Of a stretch of DNA of 48,955 bases, positions 1,201 to 47,034 are shown piece after piece (within the stretch, counting starts at the first letter, position 1; each line of letters begins with the position of its first letter). Both the position numbers and the translations under genes were made by a program. Source of the DNA: a virus; IMG/VR virus record IMGVR_UViG_3300034685_000104, positions 1 to 48,955 of that record; one strand, 5' to 3'. The notes beneath the pieces are model-generated. The model saw only the letters and a program-made list of their open reading frames with translations. It was not told the origin of the DNA and searched no databases.

Positions 1201-1494
1201 ATGGTAGAATTGCAAGAACCAAGATTGCCCAGCGTATTTAAGAACGCTAGGTTGGTACGTGTAGGCAAGGTATCTATTCACTCTATAGTCGATTTTTATA
1301 AGGCTATAGGTTGGAATGGAAAAAGTGATGTAAACACCGCGAAAGTGGTTGTTAATCCAGCATTTGCCGATCATTTATTTGCTAATTGTATATGTAATGG
1401 TGGCGATCCGTTGGTATGGCTATTGAATAGTCCAAATCAAGACAGCCATATACCATATGGTGTGGCCATGCTCCTTGAAGGGTGGCAAGAATAA
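1201..1494 (+). CDS. Hypothetical protein
   Basis: A 97-residue protein whose ATG follows the stop of the 699 gene by one base; the ribosome binding site (AGGAGG) lies inside the end of that gene, so the two are probably translationally coupled. It contains two Cys close together (CICNGG) and ends in a hydrophobic stretch plus 'EGWQE'. No family recognised. Confidence 0.65.
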   Translation: MVELQEPRLPSVFKNARLVRVGKVSIHSIVDFYKAIGWNGKSDVNTAKVVVNPAFADHLFANCICNGGDPLVWLLNSPNQDSHIPYGVAMLLEGWQE

Positions 1495-1516
1495 ATAAAA
1501 ATTTTTGTGTAGGGTT

Positions 1517-1548
1517 TATAATATAGAGTATCAAAACTCTATATTATA
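1517..1548. repeat. Inverted repeat in a leader, copy 1 (12-bp arms)
   Basis: TATAATATAGAG (1517-1528) and CTCTATATTATA (1537-1548) are perfect complements around an 8-nt spacer. A near copy with a different spacer sits at 3184-3215, also just before an AGGAGG-led gene. The left arm contains a TATAAT hexamer. It could be an operator, a promoter -10 region or an mRNA 5' stem-loop. There is no T-run typical of a terminator. Confidence 0.55.
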
Positions 1549-1581
1549 GATACATAAATAATAAAATTGGAGGGAAGAAAA

Positions 1582-2058
1582 ATGTTAGAATATAAAAAAT
1601 ACGATGTAGAGAATCTGTTACAGGGACAAGATGATGCCATGATGTGCGATGAGGTGGCATTTGAATATGAAGGCTATATAGAGGACGCGATAAATACAGT
1701 TGCGGATTTGTACGTAAGTATATATTCACATAAATTGTTTAACAATCTTGAAAAATTGTATAACGCTGGGTTTTACAATGAGGCAATAGGTATTGTAGAC
1801 TTTAGCGGTGATATACTTAAAGATATACAAAACGCATGGTATATGTATAATGAATATATTTTAGACAAAAACAGAGAAACTATTTTGTATAACCATGCAA
1901 TAAAATATATAAAGGATCATTACCCAGAATATGTGGATAAATTGACTGATGATGATGTAGCCGACATTTGGGATGTTGCATGTAACATGTATTTATACGA
2001 TTTTGAAGATATTGAACAAACAGTAAAAGATTTTATTATAGAGAAGGTGAAAATATGA
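1582..2058 (+). CDS. Hypothetical acidic protein, paralogue of the gene at 89
   Basis: A 158-residue acidic protein. The first 13 residues (MLEYKKYDVENLL) and the later 'YPEYVDKL' segment match the gene at 89, which marks a duplication. The ATG at 1582 lies 9 bases after TTGGAGGG; the in-frame TTG at 1567 is part of that site. The stop overlaps the next start by four bases (ATGA), indicating translational coupling with the gene at 2055. No known domain. Confidence 0.75.
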   Translation: MLEYKKYDVENLLQGQDDAMMCDEVAFEYEGYIEDAINTVADLYVSIYSHKLFNNLEKLYNAGFYNEAIGIVDFSGDILKDIQNAWYMYNEYILDKNRETILYNHAIKYIKDHYPEYVDKLTDDDVADIWDVACNMYLYDFEDIEQTVKDFIIEKVKI

Positions 2059-2384
2059 AGATAATTAACTTAACACCTCACGATATCAATATCTTGACAG
2101 ATGCTGGGGATATAACAATCCCAGCATCAGGTCAAGTGGCTAGGTGCGCAACGACAAGACAAACTATAGATGTTATTAATATTAATGGTATCAATGTTAA
2201 TATTAATAAGACATTATATGGTACTGTTGACGGATTGCCAGATCCTGCGCCAGATACATTGTATATAGTATCTGCTTTAGTGGCCCAAGCTGCTAAAGAT
2301 AGGCAAGATTTGGTTATACCAGATGATTCTGTCAGAGATGACCAGGGTAAGATCATAGGGTGTAGGGCATTAGCAAGAGTGTAA
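2055..2384 (+). CDS. Conserved phage protein of unknown function
   Basis: A 109-residue protein with the layout 'INLTPHDI', then 'PASGQVARC', then 'YGTVDGLP', 'YIVSALVA' and finally 'RDDQGKIIGCRALA'. I recognise this pattern as a widespread small phage family without an assigned function. Its start overlaps the end of the 1582 gene. Its stop is only five bases before the tmRNA-like RNA gene at 2390, so that RNA is probably released from the same transcript. Confidence 0.75.
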   Translation: MKIINLTPHDINILTDAGDITIPASGQVARCATTRQTIDVININGINVNINKTLYGTVDGLPDPAPDTLYIVSALVAQAAKDRQDLVIPDDSVRDDQGKIIGCRALARV

Positions 2385-2389
2385 AGATA

Positions 2390-2468
2390 GGGGCTGGAAG
2401 GTATCGACGGAGTGAAAGGCCAACGTGCAAAACTCCGGACCGGGGTTCGATTCCCCGCAGCTCCACCA
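2390..2468 (+). ncRNA. Miniature tmRNA-like RNA (tRNA-like domain only, 79 nt)
   Basis: The 5' end GGGGCTG (2390-2396) pairs over 7 bp with CAGCTCC (2458-2464), including a G3-U70 wobble, the alanyl-tRNA synthetase identity element. CCA is encoded (2466-2468) after discriminator A2465. A perfect T-arm follows (CGGGG 2441-2445, 7-nt loop TTCGATT, CCCCG 2453-2457). There is no D-stem or anticodon arm; instead 'TATCGACGGAGT' leads into a 6-bp helix, CGGAGT (2408-2413) with ACTCCG (2432-2437), matching the D-loop/helix-2 junction of ssrA RNA. Normal tmRNA is about 350-400 nt with a tag reading frame and pseudoknots. Here all of that is replaced by an 18-nt loop (2414-2431). The flanking genes are 5 and 19 nt away, so the ends would need RNase P and 3' processing. 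Both tmRNA ends are present, which argues against a simple attachment-site copy of ssrA. Confidence 0.8.
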
Positions 2469-2487: not shown

Positions 2488-2853
2488 ATGTTAAAAATTG
2501 ACATAACAGAATATAAAGATACGTTGATGCGTAAACACAGCGGATATGTCGCCGCTTTGGGACCATGGAAAGAATATGGTAAAACCAAAACAGAAGCTAA
2601 AAATAATTTACAGGAGGCTTTAAATTGGTTTATGGAAATAACGCAAAGCGATTTGCCGCTTGTAGTACATGCTTGCGATAGTATATTTGTATTATCATAT
2701 ACGTTTTATGGACTAGAAATCAAACGTATAGATGCAAATAATAAAGATTGCGGGGTGGAGTTTATGGGGCGTATTACACTACAAGAAGCTATTGCAAGGT
2801 TCCAAAATATAGTTGACCAGTATATTGATGCAGTAAATTATATTCAAGGGTGA
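2488..2853 (+). CDS. Hypothetical protein, possibly HicB-like
   Basis: A 121-residue protein starting at the ATG after AGGGGTGAT. The first half (LGPWKEYGKTKTEAKNNLQEAL) resembles the short alpha/beta fold of HicB-type antitoxins, in which a sheet carrying a G-rich turn is followed by 'T..EA...L..AL'. No HicA partner is next to it and the DNA-binding C-terminus is not evident, so the family call is weak. It is the first gene after the tmRNA-like RNA. Confidence 0.55.
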   Translation: MLKIDITEYKDTLMRKHSGYVAALGPWKEYGKTKTEAKNNLQEALNWFMEITQSDLPLVVHACDSIFVLSYTFYGLEIKRIDANNKDCGVEFMGRITLQEAIARFQNIVDQYIDAVNYIQG

Positions 2854-2985: not shown

Positions 2986-3165
2986 ATGACAGAATTACAA
3001 GATTTTCTAATTAGAAAGGCGGTGCAGGATTTACTAGACAAACAAATTGTGCTAAAATTATATTATGCAATTGTGGATGGTATATTATGCCAAGACATCA
3101 ATTTAGGCAATATATGGCAAAATTATGATAAATATATAAACGAATATCAAAATAATAAACAATAA
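2986..3165 (+). CDS. Hypothetical protein
   Basis: A 59-residue protein starting at the ATG after GAAAGAAGA; an in-frame TTG at 2968 would overlap the previous gene. It is mostly helical by composition and ends with a polar NNKQ tail. No domain is recognised. It ends this small operon, and the inverted-repeat leader at 3184 begins 18 bases later. Confidence 0.55.
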   Translation: MTELQDFLIRKAVQDLLDKQIVLKLYYAIVDGILCQDINLGNIWQNYDKYINEYQNNKQ

Positions 3166-3183
3166 ATATTTTTATGCAGGGTT

Positions 3184-3215
3184 TAAAATATAGAGCGTTG
3201 AGACTCTATATTATA
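3184..3215. repeat. Inverted repeat in a leader, copy 2
   Basis: TAAAATATAGAG (3184-3195) and CTCTATATTATA (3204-3215) pair except at one position, with an 8-nt spacer (CGTTGAGA) that differs from the copy at 1517. The downstream context (ATTATAGATACA, then an AGGAGG site) is also shared with copy 1, so the two leaders are related and the spacer is the variable part. Confidence 0.55.
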
Positions 3216-3250
3216 GATACAAAATAAAAAATATTTAGGAGGAATTAAAA

Positions 3251-3688
3251 ATGGCAAATAAAGAAACAGCATTTGTATTGGATGATGGTGATCGCTATAC
3301 ATTTTTTATAGCGCATACAAGGGATGGAGCGAAGGTACTGGCTGCAACTTGGGACAATGGGACAACATCGGATACTATATGGACAGCGGATAGTACAACT
3401 ATTCCTGAAGATATAGAAGATGCACAATATGCAATAGATAATTATGATTGGGCTATCAACCAATCAAGCGAGCTGTTAGAGAACATGAAACATTTTAATT
3501 TATATTGGAAAAATGATTCTGTTGAAATGGTAGATTTCTTAAACAATGGAAAGGTGGAAGGATGGTTGTCCGCGGGCCTTGTTGTTATTGATGATGAAGA
3601 TAATGATGGAACGGCTGTATATGTTGATACGAGCATTGATGGTGATTTTATAGACTTAGTAGAACAATATGGACTGGAATGGGAATAG
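3251..3688 (+). CDS. Hypothetical acidic protein
   Basis: A 145-residue, strongly acidic protein with many Asp and no Cys. It is led by AGGAGG and the inverted-repeat leader at 3184. The middle contains 'AQYAIDNYDWAINQSSELLENMKHF', predicted helical, and the end is a Asp-rich 'DDEDNDGT' stretch. It belongs with the other acidic proteins of this cluster. Acidic DNA-mimic proteins are one possible role for such genes, but nothing specific supports this. Confidence 0.7.
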   Translation: MANKETAFVLDDGDRYTFFIAHTRDGAKVLAATWDNGTTSDTIWTADSTTIPEDIEDAQYAIDNYDWAINQSSELLENMKHFNLYWKNDSVEMVDFLNNGKVEGWLSAGLVVIDDEDNDGTAVYVDTSIDGDFIDLVEQYGLEWE

Positions 3689-3700
3689 GAGGAAATAAAA

Positions 3701-4166
3701 ATGTTAAAACTGAAAAAAGAAAACATGATGGATTTAGCGGATTATATTATGTTAAACGATTTGGCCGAATATATTTCGCAACAAGGTTTGCACGAAATAA
3801 TTCAGGAAGAGGAACAAAAAGGCATGTTCGGCAATGTATTTGTAAACGTCAAAATAGACGATGAACCAGTAGTTATTGAGTATATGAACAATGGTACATG
3901 TTTTTTTTGAAGATGGTGAAGATTTGTCAGATTATAAGCTTGATGATATAGAGTTTTATACAAATGTTAGTTATCAGATACCCGATGGTGAATGGGTAGA
4001 ATATGATTGGACAGATAATGTCGAATTTAGCGACGATGATGACGCATTGGACTGGGTGGGCGATTTTGACAAGGAAGCAATAGCTAATGCGTTTAAGTTG
4101 AACAGTGGAACAGCTAATGCGCCATGGGCGGGGTTAGAATCTATATATTTAGTAGCCGAAGATTGA
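3701..4166 (+). CDS. Hypothetical acidic protein split in two frames at a T8 run (possible programmed slippage)
   Basis: The first part (ATG 3701, led by AGGAGG) runs 69 residues to a TGA at 3908-3910. A second open frame covers 3891-4166 and continues the same acidic style (FEDGEDLSDYKLDDIEF). The frames meet at eight consecutive T (3901-3908). Losing one T, or adding two, in the transcript joins them into one protein of about 154 residues. The second part has no ribosome binding site of its own, which favours a joined product. The next gene has its own AAAGGAGG. Alternatives are a sequencing error in the homopolymer or a true frameshift mutation. The N-terminus (MLKLKKENMMDL) loosely echoes the 89/1582 paralogues. 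Confidence 0.6.
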
Positions 4167-4180
4167 AAGGAGGTATCACA

Positions 4181-4636
4181 ATGACAAGAGAACAAGCTAA
4201 GGAATTGCTGGAAACAGCCAGAGAATCATTGGCAAATAGTGGTTATCCGTTGATATATAAATATGGAGATAAAATTAATATATCACGGGGAGACAATTTA
4301 GGAATTGCCGAGCCAGTATATAACCATCGGGCAGAAATATTGGTTAATACCGATGAGTTGAAAGATTTGTTAAATCCATATGAATATGATTTTGATGATG
4401 CTGTAGAGCATTTGATTGAAATTGTAGACAATGCGGGAGATGACAGCGATACAATATATTTGTGTGATTGGGATGGAGCGGTTGTTGTACACGATGTTGA
4501 AAGTGATGCTGTATACGAATACGCAAGCTGGAGAGATATTCCGGCAGATTGGGATTTTGGGTGCGATATAGAAGAAGTTGAAGTTATAGAAGTAATTGAT
4601 GGTGTAGCTCATATATGGGGACATAGACAGATATAA
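4181..4636 (+). CDS. Hypothetical acidic protein
   Basis: A 151-residue acidic protein. The ATG at 4181 is 7 bases after AAAGGAGG; an earlier in-frame start at 4124 lies inside the previous gene. The sequence has a helical N-terminus (REQAKELLETARESL), a central region rich in Asp/Tyr and a C-terminus with 'EEVEVIEVIDGVAHIW'. No family is recognised. Confidence 0.7.
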   Translation: MTREQAKELLETARESLANSGYPLIYKYGDKINISRGDNLGIAEPVYNHRAEILVNTDELKDLLNPYEYDFDDAVEHLIEIVDNAGDDSDTIYLCDWDGAVVVHDVESDAVYEYASWRDIPADWDFGCDIEEVEVIEVIDGVAHIWGHRQI

Positions 4637-5881: not shown

Positions 5882-6088
5882 ATGAATCCAGCAGCATTTG
5901 CATTATTAACCATGGTATTATTATGGAGTATGATTGAACCTGCGCTGGGGTTAATTATATCGGCAACGAAACATAGTAAGAATATGCAGGGTCCAAAAGT
6001 AGACCCGATTTTACAGATAAACAGCGTGAGCAGGTATACACAAACTAATACAAAGGAGGATAAAAATGTACAGTACGATATTAGATGA
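5882..6088 (+). CDS. Small membrane-anchored protein
   Basis: A 68-residue protein with one hydrophobic segment at about residues 4-28 followed by a polar tail. Its ATG is one base after the previous stop, with GGAGGCG inside that gene's end. Its last 23 bases overlap the recombinase start at 6066, so the two are coupled. Function unknown. Confidence 0.5.
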   Translation: MNPAAFALLTMVLLWSMIEPALGLIISATKHSKNMQGPKVDPILQINSVSRYTQTNTKEDKNVQYDIR

Positions 6089-6962
6089 TTATAAAATGTA
6101 TTTAGTTGGTGTTAATAAAAGTGACAATACCATTAAACAATATATACAAGATATAGCATCGTGGTATTCGTATATGGCCAACAATTATTTTGCGATTGAC
6201 TCATTAGCGTTAAAAGACGTCACAATAGATCATATTTATGCATGGTTATATAAATTATCGCAAGACGGATGCAGCGCTTCTACAAGGCGTAGAAAGATTG
6301 CGTCTTTAAGATCGTTTTTTGCATATTTGCATATGCGTAAGATTATAGATAACAATATAATGCAGGATATCGATGCGCCTAAAATAGATAAAACCATACC
6401 AAGGTACTTCACCATAGAACAGTGCCGACAGCTTATTGATAATATCAAAGGGCGCAACATGGTGCGAGATAGACTGATAGTAAGCTTATTGCTTACAACC
6501 GGCATGAGACTATCTGAGCTTGTGTCTATTAATGTTGGTGATATAAAAGATGGGTATATTGTTATCAAAGGGAAGGGAGGGAAAGAGCGTAATGTATATT
6601 TAAGCGATAACATGGTTAAACAGTTAGCAGATTATACGCAGGGCTGCACCGATCCGAACAGGCCGCTGTTTGTGTCAGAAATCGGCAATCGCATATCTCA
6701 TGATGTGGTTGAACGTATCGTAAAGAACGCAATAGGTCGAAGCGGGTTAAATATAGAGAACAAACGCGGCGTTGCTGTTCATACTTTACGACATACATTT
6801 GCGACACTGAATTATCAGAGTGGCAATATGGATATCAGACAGTTGCAGGAAATTTTAGGACATAGTAATATATCCACAACGCAAATATATACACATGTTG
6901 ATAGCAATGCTTTAAAAACCGCAGTAAATCGCAGTCCGTTGGATGTTGTTGCAACGATTTAA
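6066..6962 (+). CDS. Tyrosine recombinase of the XerC/XerD type
   Basis: A 298-residue site-specific recombinase, the usual Xer length. The N-terminal SAM-like core-binding domain covers about residues 1-100 (SDNTIKQYIQDI, STRRRKIASLRSFFAYL). The catalytic residues are visible: Arg in TGMRLSEL, Lys in KGKGGKER, His-x-x-Arg in HTLRHTFAT, His in LGHSNIST and the Tyr nucleophile in QIYTHV. The ATG at 6066 follows AAGGAGG. It could act in phage integration or in resolving genome multimers. A second, more integrase-like tyrosine recombinase is encoded at 34736 on the other strand, so the division of labour is unclear. Confidence 0.9.
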   Translation: MYSTILDDYKMYLVGVNKSDNTIKQYIQDIASWYSYMANNYFAIDSLALKDVTIDHIYAWLYKLSQDGCSASTRRRKIASLRSFFAYLHMRKIIDNNIMQDIDAPKIDKTIPRYFTIEQCRQLIDNIKGRNMVRDRLIVSLLLTTGMRLSELVSINVGDIKDGYIVIKGKGGKERNVYLSDNMVKQLADYTQGCTDPNRPLFVSEIGNRISHDVVERIVKNAIGRSGLNIENKRGVAVHTLRHTFATLNYQSGNMDIRQLQEILGHSNISTTQIYTHVDSNALKTAVNRSPLDVVATI

Positions 6963-34735: not shown

Positions 34736-35719
34736 TTATAATACGAATTGATTAGGGTCTATCCTAAAAATCTTACTTAATGAATCTTCTTTGTGTTCCA
34801 TGATATAGTTTTTAGTTGTTCCAGGGTCAGAATGATTTGCCAATACTTGTAAATCGCTAAGGTCAACTTTAATTCCATATTTGTTATTGCCAGTTGACAG
34901 ATTTTCTAAGCGTGAATGGCGCAGAGAATGTGGGTTAAATTTAATTTGTGTGTTAAGCAATTGAGTTAAAATACGAGACATATAACGGCACCAATAGTCA
35001 GGCGAACCATAACCGCACACTTCTTTGCTGCCGTCTTTTTTAACTTTAACAAACAGTTCCTCAATATCATCGTCCCCGCGTTGTTTTAAATACTCCCTAA
35101 TAATATCCTGCGTATCTTGGTCATAATATAACCTGAATTTTTTGCCACGTTTGCCGACTACCATGTTTGTTGTATAACCATCAAGCAATCCGTTTTTCAA
35201 TATTTGCAGAATTTCGTTCTTACGGCCTGCCGTAATATATGATAACATTAAATACATAGCAACAAGCAAATTATCGCGTCTAATAAGCTCATCACGCAAC
35301 ATATATATCCATTCATCTTTTAAAAATACAATTTCTTTAACCGGGTCTTTAGGCAACCCTTTTATTGTATGTGCCACATTATTTTGATAATCTATCTCAT
35401 CATCTTCTTCAAAATAACTTAAAGCAGAACGTAAACAACTTGCCAATCTATTAATTCTAGCATTTGACATACCCATATCTTGGAATATCAAAACCAATTT
35501 GCGTATATCTTTACGTGTTAATTCGAGTAAACTTTTATTATCAAAATGCCGATATAATAATGTGACAATAATTCTCATGTCATGTTCGTACTGATATATA
35601 GTTTTAGGGCGCTTACCTTGCGCCCTTTTTTCATCTAAAAAGTCTTGTATCAACGCCTTGTTTTCACGTGATACTTTAGTTTGGAATTCATCAGGATTGA
35701 CTATCTTGTTTTGTGCCAT
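34736..35719 (-). CDS. int: Tyrosine integrase
   Basis: A 327-residue recombinase. ATG 35719 follows AGGTGATAATA; an ATA-type extension to 35728 is less likely. Catalytic residues: Arg in 'TAGRKNEIL', His-x-x-Arg in 'HSLRHSRL', His in 'LANHSDPGTT' and Tyr in 'TKNYIMEH'. The core-binding domain lies in the first 130 residues. It probably integrates the phage. It lies on the opposite strand from the Xer-like gene at 6066, next to the tRNA-like fragment at 34149 that may relate to its site. Confidence 0.9.
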   Translation of the reverse strand: MAQNKIVNPDEFQTKVSRENKALIQDFLDEKRAQGKRPKTIYQYEHDMRIIVTLLYRHFDNKSLLELTRKDIRKLVLIFQDMGMSNARINRLASCLRSALSYFEEDDEIDYQNNVAHTIKGLPKDPVKEIVFLKDEWIYMLRDELIRRDNLLVAMYLMLSYITAGRKNEILQILKNGLLDGYTTNMVVGKRGKKFRLYYDQDTQDIIREYLKQRGDDDIEELFVKVKKDGSKEVCGYGSPDYWCRYMSRILTQLLNTQIKFNPHSLRHSRLENLSTGNNKYGIKVDLSDLQVLANHSDPGTTKNYIMEHKEDSLSKIFRIDPNQFVL

Positions 35720-35840
35720 TATTATCACCTAATTTGGCTTGTAATTCATCTACGACAACTTGCAGTGCTGCAATTTGTACGGCCTGTTGTCCTATAATCA
35801 TCTGTAATTTCTCTATTATTTTATTTACATCTACATCCAT
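35691..35840 (-). CDS. Small coiled-coil protein
   Basis: A 49-residue ORF with AAGGGAG before its ATG. It is one long helix (IIEKLQMIIGQQAVQIAALQVVVDELQAKL) with heptad-like spacing, then a polar tail. It lies between the tail gene and the integrase, whose start it overlaps by 29 bases. Short coiled-coil proteins at this place are common in phages. Confidence 0.6.
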   Translation of the reverse strand: MDVDVNKIIEKLQMIIGQQAVQIAALQVVVDELQAKLGDNNGTKQDSQS

Positions 35841-45717: not shown

Positions 45718-46557
45718 TTAGGTTGCATTTTTTGTACCTAGAGACCAATAACGTGGTATATTACTATTGACCAATGTATAGTCAATGTTATACGCCTCGC
45801 TATTACGGGAATATATCATGTTTAAATCGCTAACAATGTCTGTCAAATTGGATTGTAACGGTAAGATTGGATAATCGGGTAAATTAGGTATTATGATTTG
45901 AACACCAATTGGTGCATTCCCAAAATATTCAGTACGCGTTTCAATAGCCAGATAGGACAGAGTAGCATCGCCTGACAATGCATAACTTACTGTATTAACA
46001 CCACTAACAACCGCAGGATAATTACCACTAATAGTGCTGCTAACAAAGTTTTTCTCTACTTTTTGCCTTATACAATCAATAGTTACTATATCGGACAACG
46101 TTAACGAATTGTTATAAGTTAGTGTTTGATTATTTATAGTAATAGATATGCCGCCTGTTGAATTTGTCCCTTTAAAAATAATACGTAAATGATTATCAAT
46201 ATAATCAGGTAAATAAAAATTATAACTAGTATTCTCCGAAAATAACAGTATATCGTTAGCAATGTCGTCGTATTGGCTATAACACAAATTATTTACTAGC
46301 GGCCAACTAACGCCAACCTTTTGCACAGTAACATCGTCAGCAGAACACTTTGTACCCATATTCCAGAAACGAGGTATATTACTATTAGCTATACTATAAT
46401 CTAAATTATACGCTTCACTATTACGTGTAAACGGAGAAGCAACAAACAAAATTACAAAAACATTGTCAAATAAACCTATATTGTCGAAACGAGGGGTATT
46501 AGCGGGCGTTTGTACCCCATCTTGTGTATATGCAATCGAATTACGTGTAAAACCCAT
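45718..46557 (-). CDS. Tail-region protein with repeated TRNSEAYN motif
   Basis: A 279-residue protein. 'TRNSEAYNLDYSIANSNIPRFW' occurs near residue 43 and 'SRNSEAYNIDYTLVNSNIPRYW' near residue 248, and the N-terminus ('FTRNSIAYTQDGVQTPANTPRFD') is a related third copy. This phrase usually opens phage LamG-type tail proteins. The middle is a beta domain. Led by AGGCG. A structural or adhesin-related role is inferred. Confidence 0.6.
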   Translation of the reverse strand: MGFTRNSIAYTQDGVQTPANTPRFDNIGLFDNVFVILFVASPFTRNSEAYNLDYSIANSNIPRFWNMGTKCSADDVTVQKVGVSWPLVNNLCYSQYDDIANDILLFSENTSYNFYLPDYIDNHLRIIFKGTNSTGGISITINNQTLTYNNSLTLSDIVTIDCIRQKVEKNFVSSTISGNYPAVVSGVNTVSYALSGDATLSYLAIETRTEYFGNAPIGVQIIIPNLPDYPILPLQSNLTDIVSDLNMIYSRNSEAYNIDYTLVNSNIPRYWSLGTKNAT

Positions 46558-46566
46558 ATATAACGC

Positions 46567-47034
46567 CTACGTAATCGTAATTTCCAATGTAACTATCCAT
46601 ATTTCGCCCGCTACTTTAACACCTTGATTGGATACCAGTCTGTTTAATGATATATTCCCATTATCAACAGTGAATTCGTTCCACGTAAAATTTCCATTAT
46701 TCGCATCGAACACGGCCCTAAAAATAACTTTTTGATTAGAGCCGTATATCGGGTAACCATATTCCATACGAGCGTATGCTTTATTAGTTCCTTGTAACCC
46801 TGTTTGTGAAGCATTAGCTGCAGCACTTCCATCACCTACACCAATACGTGCATTATAATAATCAAACAGTACAACAGAACCCCCACATAAAGTACTAAAT
46901 ATAGTATTAACACCCGTATTCAATAATAAATTACCTCTGATGCACACAGTATCATAGGGGCTATTTGTCTTATAGCCCCATATATCTTTATATTTTTCAA
47001 TTGTCCATACCGGACACCACACACCATGATCCAT
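46567..47034 (-). CDS. Conserved tail-region structural protein
   Basis: A 155-residue protein. ATG 47034 is used; TTG 47040 would overlap the tape-measure stop. The pattern 'ARIGVGDGSAAANASQTGLQG', then 'FRAVFDANNGNFTWNEFTVDNG' is a known small phage structural family found near fibre genes. It follows the tape measure directly. Confidence 0.65.
   Translation of the reverse strand: MDHGVWCPVWTIEKYKDIWGYKTNSPYDTVCIRGNLLLNTGVNTIFSTLCGGSVVLFDYYNARIGVGDGSAAANASQTGLQGTNKAYARMEYGYPIYGSNQKVIFRAVFDANNGNFTWNEFTVDNGNISLNRLVSNQGVKVAGEIWIVTLEITIT

Follow-up and report, generated by a model that had tools for sequence, protein, structure and literature searches.

Tag-less mini-tmRNAs of phages, a family that probably blocks or replaces host tagging of stalled proteins

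Positions 2390..2468 (+ strand) of a virus record of 48,955 bases, the whole of which was analysed here as the window, hold a mini-tmRNA gene of 79 nt that consists of the tRNA-like domain only and ends in an encoded CCA, as indicated by the Rfam tmRNA model (RF00023), a family covariance model (R1) and the fold. The gene is one of a family of 103 distinct sequences (the window's included), which fall into 62 groups of less than 80% identity and come from viral and phage records. Its kind is already known, i.e., the phage "TLD only" tmRNA, previously from one phage as far as the excerpts of the cited articles go, and we consider that the family probably blocks or replaces host tagging of stalled proteins.

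The mini-tmRNA gene and its surroundings

RF00023 matched 2390-2468 at 65.9 bits (E 1.5e-23; gathering score 47) in an alignment that runs from the first to the last model position (1-374), with 18 nt standing for 312 positions of the model; R1 gave 75.2 bits, the window gene being 1 of its 18 training sequences. The first-pass annotation had proposed here a 79-nt miniature tmRNA with a complete tRNA-like domain and no tag frame, to be checked with tmRNA models, and the end-to-end match above the gathering score bears it out together with the fold. The parts it listed (acceptor with G3-U70, T arm, CCA, the hinge with a 6-bp helix, 18-nt loop) are likewise those on which sequence, alignment and fold agree.

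All parts lie on the + strand. The 5' acceptor strand GGGGCUG (2390..2396, G3 = 2392; sequence and fold) is followed by the D-region GAAGGUAUCGA (2397..2407; sequence and alignment to the tmRNA consensus), which stands in place of the tRNA D arm, is unpaired in the fold and ends in UAUCGA (hinge UAUCGAC). By analogy, it is a putative SmpB-contact region, such contact being a general tmRNA feature (PMC3985003; this and the other articles are drawn on as excerpts). The hinge helix of 6 bp joins CGGAGU (2408..2413) to ACUCCG (2432..2437), both assigned by the RF00023 alignment, the fold and covariation, and the 18-nt closing loop between them (2414..2431; alignment and fold) occupies the place where the pseudoknots and the tag reading frame would be. 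Further downstream come the T arm (2441..2457; 5 bp, 5/5, with a UUCGAUU loop, by alignment and fold), the 3' acceptor strand CAGCUCC (U70 = 2462) and then the discriminator A73 (2458..2465; sequence and fold), and finally the encoded CCA (2466..2468; sequence). The acceptor forms 7/7 pairs including G3-U70 (2392/2462), with A73 in place, and the UCGAC hinge, the GGAC linker and the T arm are all in register with RF00023. The gene shares with the bacterial one-piece tmRNA (ssrA, RF00023) the acceptor with G3-U70, the hinge, the T arm and the CCA, but differs in being without pseudoknots, resume codon and tag frame: the loop is 18 nt only, and the pseudoknot ring is absent from 2390-2468. Only a weak second hairpin of 2 bp is predicted in this loop, which is among the weaker loops of the family.

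A tRNA-Ala reading was rejected, as there is no D arm, a hinge helix stands instead of the anticodon arm, and ARAGORN, run on the window, called neither a tmRNA nor a tRNA at 2390-2468; a permuted or two-piece tmRNA was rejected because the loop closes the hinge at this locus. A structural search found 1 occurrence in the window and 0 in 200 windows shuffled by two-base blocks. The expected stems do form upon folding, as had been anticipated, but the energy is unremarkable (z -1.23; 21/200 shuffles fold equally well), and since single-sequence folding was not significant, covariation was used instead. An identical mini occurs in a 77,064-base record (locus L040), with 99.96% identity to the window over 2,735 nt.

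The gene begins 5 nt past the stop of an ORF of 109 aa (2055..2384, +; PHROG match phrog_30542, function unknown) and ends 19 nt ahead of the ATG of one of 121 aa (2488..2853, +; from the ORF list, no PHROG match), spacings first given from the letters and now confirmed. It is part of a string of small genes and is framed by two copies of an 82-nt leader with an inverted repeat (1487..1568, +, and 3154-3235, 79% identity), a probable promoter/operator region that would bound the mini-tmRNA unit. This transcription unit is presumed to be headed by the gene at 1582..2058 (+), whose acidic product (158 aa from ATG, pI 4.2) is a weak candidate for an Ocr-like anti-restriction protein, judged by its charge and by a match to phrog_2568 (E 2.3e-5, obtained with the longer form from TTG 1567); Pfam returned nothing for it at E 0.1. 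The leader end and gene start of two Ocr-like genes (40-127 and 1533-1620) are 86% identical over 88 nt, and the products of 89-571 and 1582-2058 are weakly Ocr-like paralogues that may be DNA mimics against restriction. Very acidic small proteins (pI 4.1-4.2) are encoded at 89-571, 1582-2058, 3251-3688, 3891-4166 and 4181-4636. The window also contains a perfect sigma-70-type promoter at 575-603 (TTGACA, 17 nt, TATAAT), with an ORF (699-1199) after a leader of ~90 nt, and two different tyrosine-recombinase/integrase genes (6066-6962, +, and 34736-35728, -).

Family size and covariation of the stems

Pattern scan 1 of viral contigs gave 42 stretches and the looser scan 2 at least 120. A parser demanding at least 6/7 acceptor pairs and at least 4/5 T-stem pairs was passed by 131 of 160 viral and phage loci; left out of the counts are L043, which is the stretch of the window itself, L032, removed by hand, and L054, L061 and L120, which were dropped because a longer ARAGORN tmRNA overlaps them, perhaps wrongly in the case of L061. 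Without CCA, the 103 family members measure 65-95 nt (78-80 nt in 77 of them), and CCA is encoded by 26 of the 103. The shortest relatives (L069, L102 and L046 6815-6878) have 64-65 nt without CCA; in L069 and L102 a 5-nt loop closes the hinge and there is no second hairpin. Two similar mini-tmRNA genes lie ~67 kb apart in one 136-kb virus (record G047; L122, L311, L312).

Model R1, trained on 18 sequences, reached at least 41.4 bits in 96 of the 100 sources searched, a count in which the training sequences are included, as is L054, which ARAGORN calls a full ssrA; its low end overlaps, the weakest minis scoring 41.4-41.9 bits vs 42.8 and 41.2 for the best matches that are full ssrA or tRNA-Ala. 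RF00023 matched above the gathering cut-off in 39/40 mini-bearing records. The regular-expression parser halts at the first GGAC and misses minis that the model finds, e.g., L003, L010, L011, L019 and L027. UCGAC and GGAC were fixed by the search patterns, so their invariance is no proof, and exceptions occur among the model matches (BRock and Alone3).

Several BLAST matches were set aside as non-minis, namely PaMx31, QDWS359, Rb1 and Tunturi_4 (permuted full tmRNAs), GMA2 (a full one-piece tmRNA), Ab1-TPeters (a tRNA) and those in Mycobacterium cluster K phages, which resemble ssrA attachment sites (PMC10865867, on K1 phages); the Lacusarx region examined held tRNAs only. In Tunturiibacter phage Tunturi_4, an annotated RF-1 domain peptide chain release factor (L321 1122-1883), ArfB-like by size, adjoins the permuted full tmRNA, and the pair is perhaps a phage ribosome-rescue cassette. 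Gordonia phage GMA2 has an Rfam Pistol ribozyme (L322 1842-1898, 56.8 bits) within a tRNA array.

A MAFFT alignment (A1) of 56 of the 62 representatives, six odd-sized or doubtful ones having been removed by hand, misregistered the acceptor 5' strands and was replaced by A2, i.e., 18 sequences hand-picked among the 23 representatives whose D-region has 7 nt. In A2, two-sided changes are seen at 17/23 pairs and 92.6% of the cells are paired, vs 70.1% when shuffled and 37-53% when slid; of the five values observed, none is attained in any of 500 shuffles. Across the 62 representatives, pairing holds for 334/372 cells of the first six variable hinge pairs vs 126-169/372 when slid by 1-3 nt, a count made without a hinge filter (the first stem counts omitted representatives with fewer than 3 hinge pairs). 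The T stem is paired 5/5 in 105/105 sequences (at least 4/5 was a search condition); acceptor and T-stem pairing was preset by the search, and the evidence there is the variety of pair types, not the percentage paired. Within the capsid group, for instance, the acceptor changes in a compensatory manner between L015 (GGGGCUG/CAGCUCC) and L030 (GGGGAUG/CAUCUCC). A second loop hairpin of at least 3 bp is possible in 53/62 representatives (shuffled loops: mean 35.1, maximum 46), and a 3-bp hairpin with a four-base loop in 34/62 (shuffled: mean 12.4, maximum 23).

All three outer stems show strong compensatory change and, judged by this comparison of sequences, the structure is under selection. The first-pass annotation had looked to related phages for the same layout with covarying stems, and the 103 distinct sequences with their strong covariation provide just that. 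It is hardly credible that the mini is a degenerate, non-functional relic of a tmRNA: one copy in a bacterial genome (G107) does have a broken acceptor pair and no A73, but compensatory changes and an invariant G3-U70 extend over 62 diverged groups, and the window copy has perfect stems.

G3 is found in 103/103 distinct sequences, though A3-U70 was also scored as paired; where several D-region lengths were possible, the parser favoured the one giving G3-U70. A search pattern with a non-U base at 70 found 0 stretches in the collection, and the U form at least 120; U70 was required by scan 2 but not by scan 1, and G3-U70 is present in all 26 distinct sequences from scan-1 loci. Acceptor pairs 4-6 show four or five pair types each. 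Given that G3-U70, the G-U pair being an established alanine identity element of tmRNA (PMC3985003), is invariant while the neighbouring acceptor pairs vary, alanine charging appears to be selected in the family, and delivery by EF-Tu would then matter to the phage.

Genomic placement and occurrence

The placement of the mini differs by lineage, i.e., in tRNA arrays, with replication genes, with structural genes or, in the window, in an early-type operon. At least two tRNA genes are present at 11/60 loci scanned (L001 and L006, both among these loci, share one identical mini) and 18-28 at four loci, and in five Streptomyces phages the mini is one of the genes of the tRNA array. Neighbour clusters were made from ORFs of at least 90 aa no more than 4 kb from the mini at 103 loci, one or two members per named cluster being scanned. 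A major-head-protein cluster follows the mini at 14/103 loci (median distance 123 nt), a portal-protein cluster contributes 9 ORFs that start downstream (median 58 nt), and a DnaB-like helicase cluster is downstream at 8 loci (median 249 nt). The members point in the same direction as the mini in the protease (19/19), portal (19/19), terminase (15/15), capsid (14/14) and helicase (8/8) clusters; shorter antisense clusters in the ORF list were taken for putative shadow ORFs. When the closest mechanically called ORF of 50 aa or more is taken, whether it is real or not, the agreement in strand is weaker, with 44/60 representatives upstream and 32/58 downstream.

The 14 loci with head-protein genes downstream, the 9 portal ORFs and the order in isolate phiPsal1 (prohead protease, two small ORFs, mini, capsid gene) would suit a cis-acting tRNA-like element, i.e., an RNase P/Z processing signal or a leader of the downstream gene, e.g., the major capsid gene. 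We regard this as quite improbable, since the position varies by lineage and since alanine identity and the tmRNA hinge, needless for a processing signal, are conserved. Moreover, in the capsid group a hairpin and T run precede the mini in 9/13 aligned loci and a TANNNT box ends exactly 6 nt 5' of G1 in six loci (both by eye), and these would suggest a separate mini transcript, a further point against an element acting in cis. TANNNT is found 4-8 nt before G1 at 21/102 loci vs 5-7 at shifted positions; a terminator scan of L015 was not above chance.

R1 was also run (strict filters, E ≤ 1e-6) on 398 genomes of the phylum to which a Terrilactibacillus genome belongs, 398 of that of a Vibrio and 396 of that of an actinomycete, and matched 5, 6 and 10 genomes of the respective sets at 23 places. 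True minis were present in 2/1,192 bacterial genomes (L287 and L286), the other 21 places being ssrA or tRNA-Ala. The contig of L287 also bears terminase, portal and head genes. The mini of G107 (L286/L327), with its broken acceptor pair and lost A73, is a decayed one of 80% identity to the window's, and the bacterial order of G107 may be a host group of the window phage. GTDB contigs contained at least 119 pattern stretches, of which 6, measuring 86-93 nt and differing from the mini layout, pass the acceptor test; at those 119 loci ARAGORN called 102 tmRNA genes, and nothing in 18 loci. Isolates with a mini are the Streptomyces phages LuckySocke, GiJojo, pSt2308, BRock and Alone3, the Pontimonas phage phiPsal1 and the Stenotrophomonas virus Jojan60. 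An SmpB gene was found in 0/51 records (49 with a mini; many are fragments), so host SmpB would be used.

Phage attachment cores copy the 3' end of ssrA only. An integrase attachment site or a captured host ssrA fragment, the former also raised by the first-pass annotation, is in keeping with the two tyrosine-recombinase genes of the window and with matches in 23/24 genomes of one bacterial order, the best of which cover 40-44 nt of the 3' part of the mini at 91-93% and are ssrA in the five loci inspected. However, the 5' half is present as well, with acceptor, D-region and hinge strands in folding register, and the acceptor strands co-vary: the acceptor reads GGGGGUG/CACCUCC in five compared ssrA genes and GGGGCUG/CAGCUCC in the mini, a difference in both strands (that order may not be the host's). 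The 103 sequences are, furthermore, diversified, and many lie amid structural or replication genes. An attachment site alone cannot explain the mini-tmRNA, and we accord this origin a very slight probability.

Possible roles in ribosome rescue

The first-pass annotation knew of no phage tmRNA this short, a statement that has to be withdrawn, as PMC4131195 lists "Mycobacterium phage DS6A (TLD only)". The DS6A RNA is likewise phage-encoded, barely more than a tRNA-like domain and without a tag (PMC4131195, PMC11915505), but it belongs to a different phage and is likened to the window RNA by description, not letter by letter. Among the literature matches listed and in the excerpts, no phage besides DS6A is named with such an RNA, and the family size, the charging constraint and the placement by capsid and portal genes or in tRNA arrays are absent from them. 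Mitochondrial and plastid forms of tmRNA without a coding sequence have been described (PMC11915505), and these, the plastid one of ~65 bp, share the tag-less tRNA-like domain (PMC11915505, PMC3985003) but differ in serving housekeeping, not infection, and in that the mitochondrial genes are usually permuted. The truncated tmRNA of Neubauer 2012 (via PMC8363625) is similarly without pseudoknot ring and tag part, but is a Thermus tmRNA fragment made for crystallography; with SmpB and EF-Tu, truncated tmRNA binds the ribosome (PMC8363625).

We think it fairly probable that the phage tmRNA reduced to the tRNA-like domain is an alanine-charged decoy that sabotages host trans-translation. The mini would be processed at its 5' and 3' ends, here out of the operon transcript, be charged with alanine by the host AlaRS and bind host SmpB and EF-Tu-GTP. 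Ala-mini would then move into the vacant A site of ribosomes that have stalled, or the mini might merely sequester SmpB; since it offers neither a resume codon nor a tag, it would keep host tmRNA away, and stalled phage chains would thereby escape SsrA tagging and degradation. The engaged ribosomes could be cleared otherwise, i.e., by drop-off, host ArfA/ArfB-type factors or peptidyl-tRNA hydrolase. This accords with the complete fold, the compensatory change across diverged phages, the invariant G3-U70 and the run of genes that the mini shares with the weakly assigned Ocr-like anti-restriction gene. Outside experiments point the same way: strong inhibition of tmRNA is reported for a similar molecule whether or not it can be charged, with SmpB titration as a possible cause (Mao 2009 via PMC4131195), and in E. 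coli the endogenous tmRNA is inhibited by the DS6A form (PMC11915505), so among the functions guessed at first, decoy and SmpB sink are the ones that find support. That a phage tmRNA may counteract host tagging has also been suggested (PMC5648845).

Three observations fit such a blocker less well. The fixed G3-U70 makes charging seem important to the phage, yet the reported inhibition needed none, so SmpB titration by itself leaves the invariance unexplained. A full-length tmRNA match (77588-77979, 94.2 bits) coexists with a mini (46486-46567) in one 123.6-kb virus (record G031), an unexpected combination if the mini simply blocks tmRNA. A position within tRNA arrays suits a translation helper equally. 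The T arms of the two G031 RNAs (L064/L310 and L309) are one loop base apart.

The main rival is a tag-less rescue, in which the charged mini would take over the stalled chain, add one alanine and, aided by SmpB, bring about release without a degradation tag, sustaining phage translation when host tmRNA is scarce. It would be the more striking if shown, and draws on the same G3-U70 invariance, which implies selected charging, on the 11/60 loci with at least two tRNA genes and the Streptomyces phage arrays, and on tag-less mitochondrial tmRNAs, which persist alongside SmpB and are thought to be still helpful on incomplete mRNAs (PMC11915505). We nevertheless consider it rather unlikely: canonical release is impossible without a stop codon, an RF-1/ArfB domain was found in 0/42 mini-bearing records (many of them fragments), and the sole reported test showed inhibition of tmRNA (PMC4131195, PMC11915505).

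A wider proposal, which we put forward tentatively and with more doubt than confidence, is that alanine-charged, tag-less tmRNAs form a large class specific to phages, one that reprograms ribosome rescue in the course of infection. With host SmpB and EF-Tu, these RNAs would free or park phage chains with at most one alanine added, and depending on the lineage they would be made as a separate transcript upstream of the major capsid gene or as part of the tRNA set.

Whatever the mode of action, a tmRNA form that the cited excerpts name from a single phage is a gene family of wide distribution among phages and, as judged from covariation, under strong structural selection, one that ARAGORN overlooked in the window and that is annotated as tmRNA at the mini locus in none of the seven isolate records. 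The isolates carrying a mini make deletion tests possible, and the family suggests that many phages may manipulate the ribosome-rescue and protein-tagging system of their hosts.
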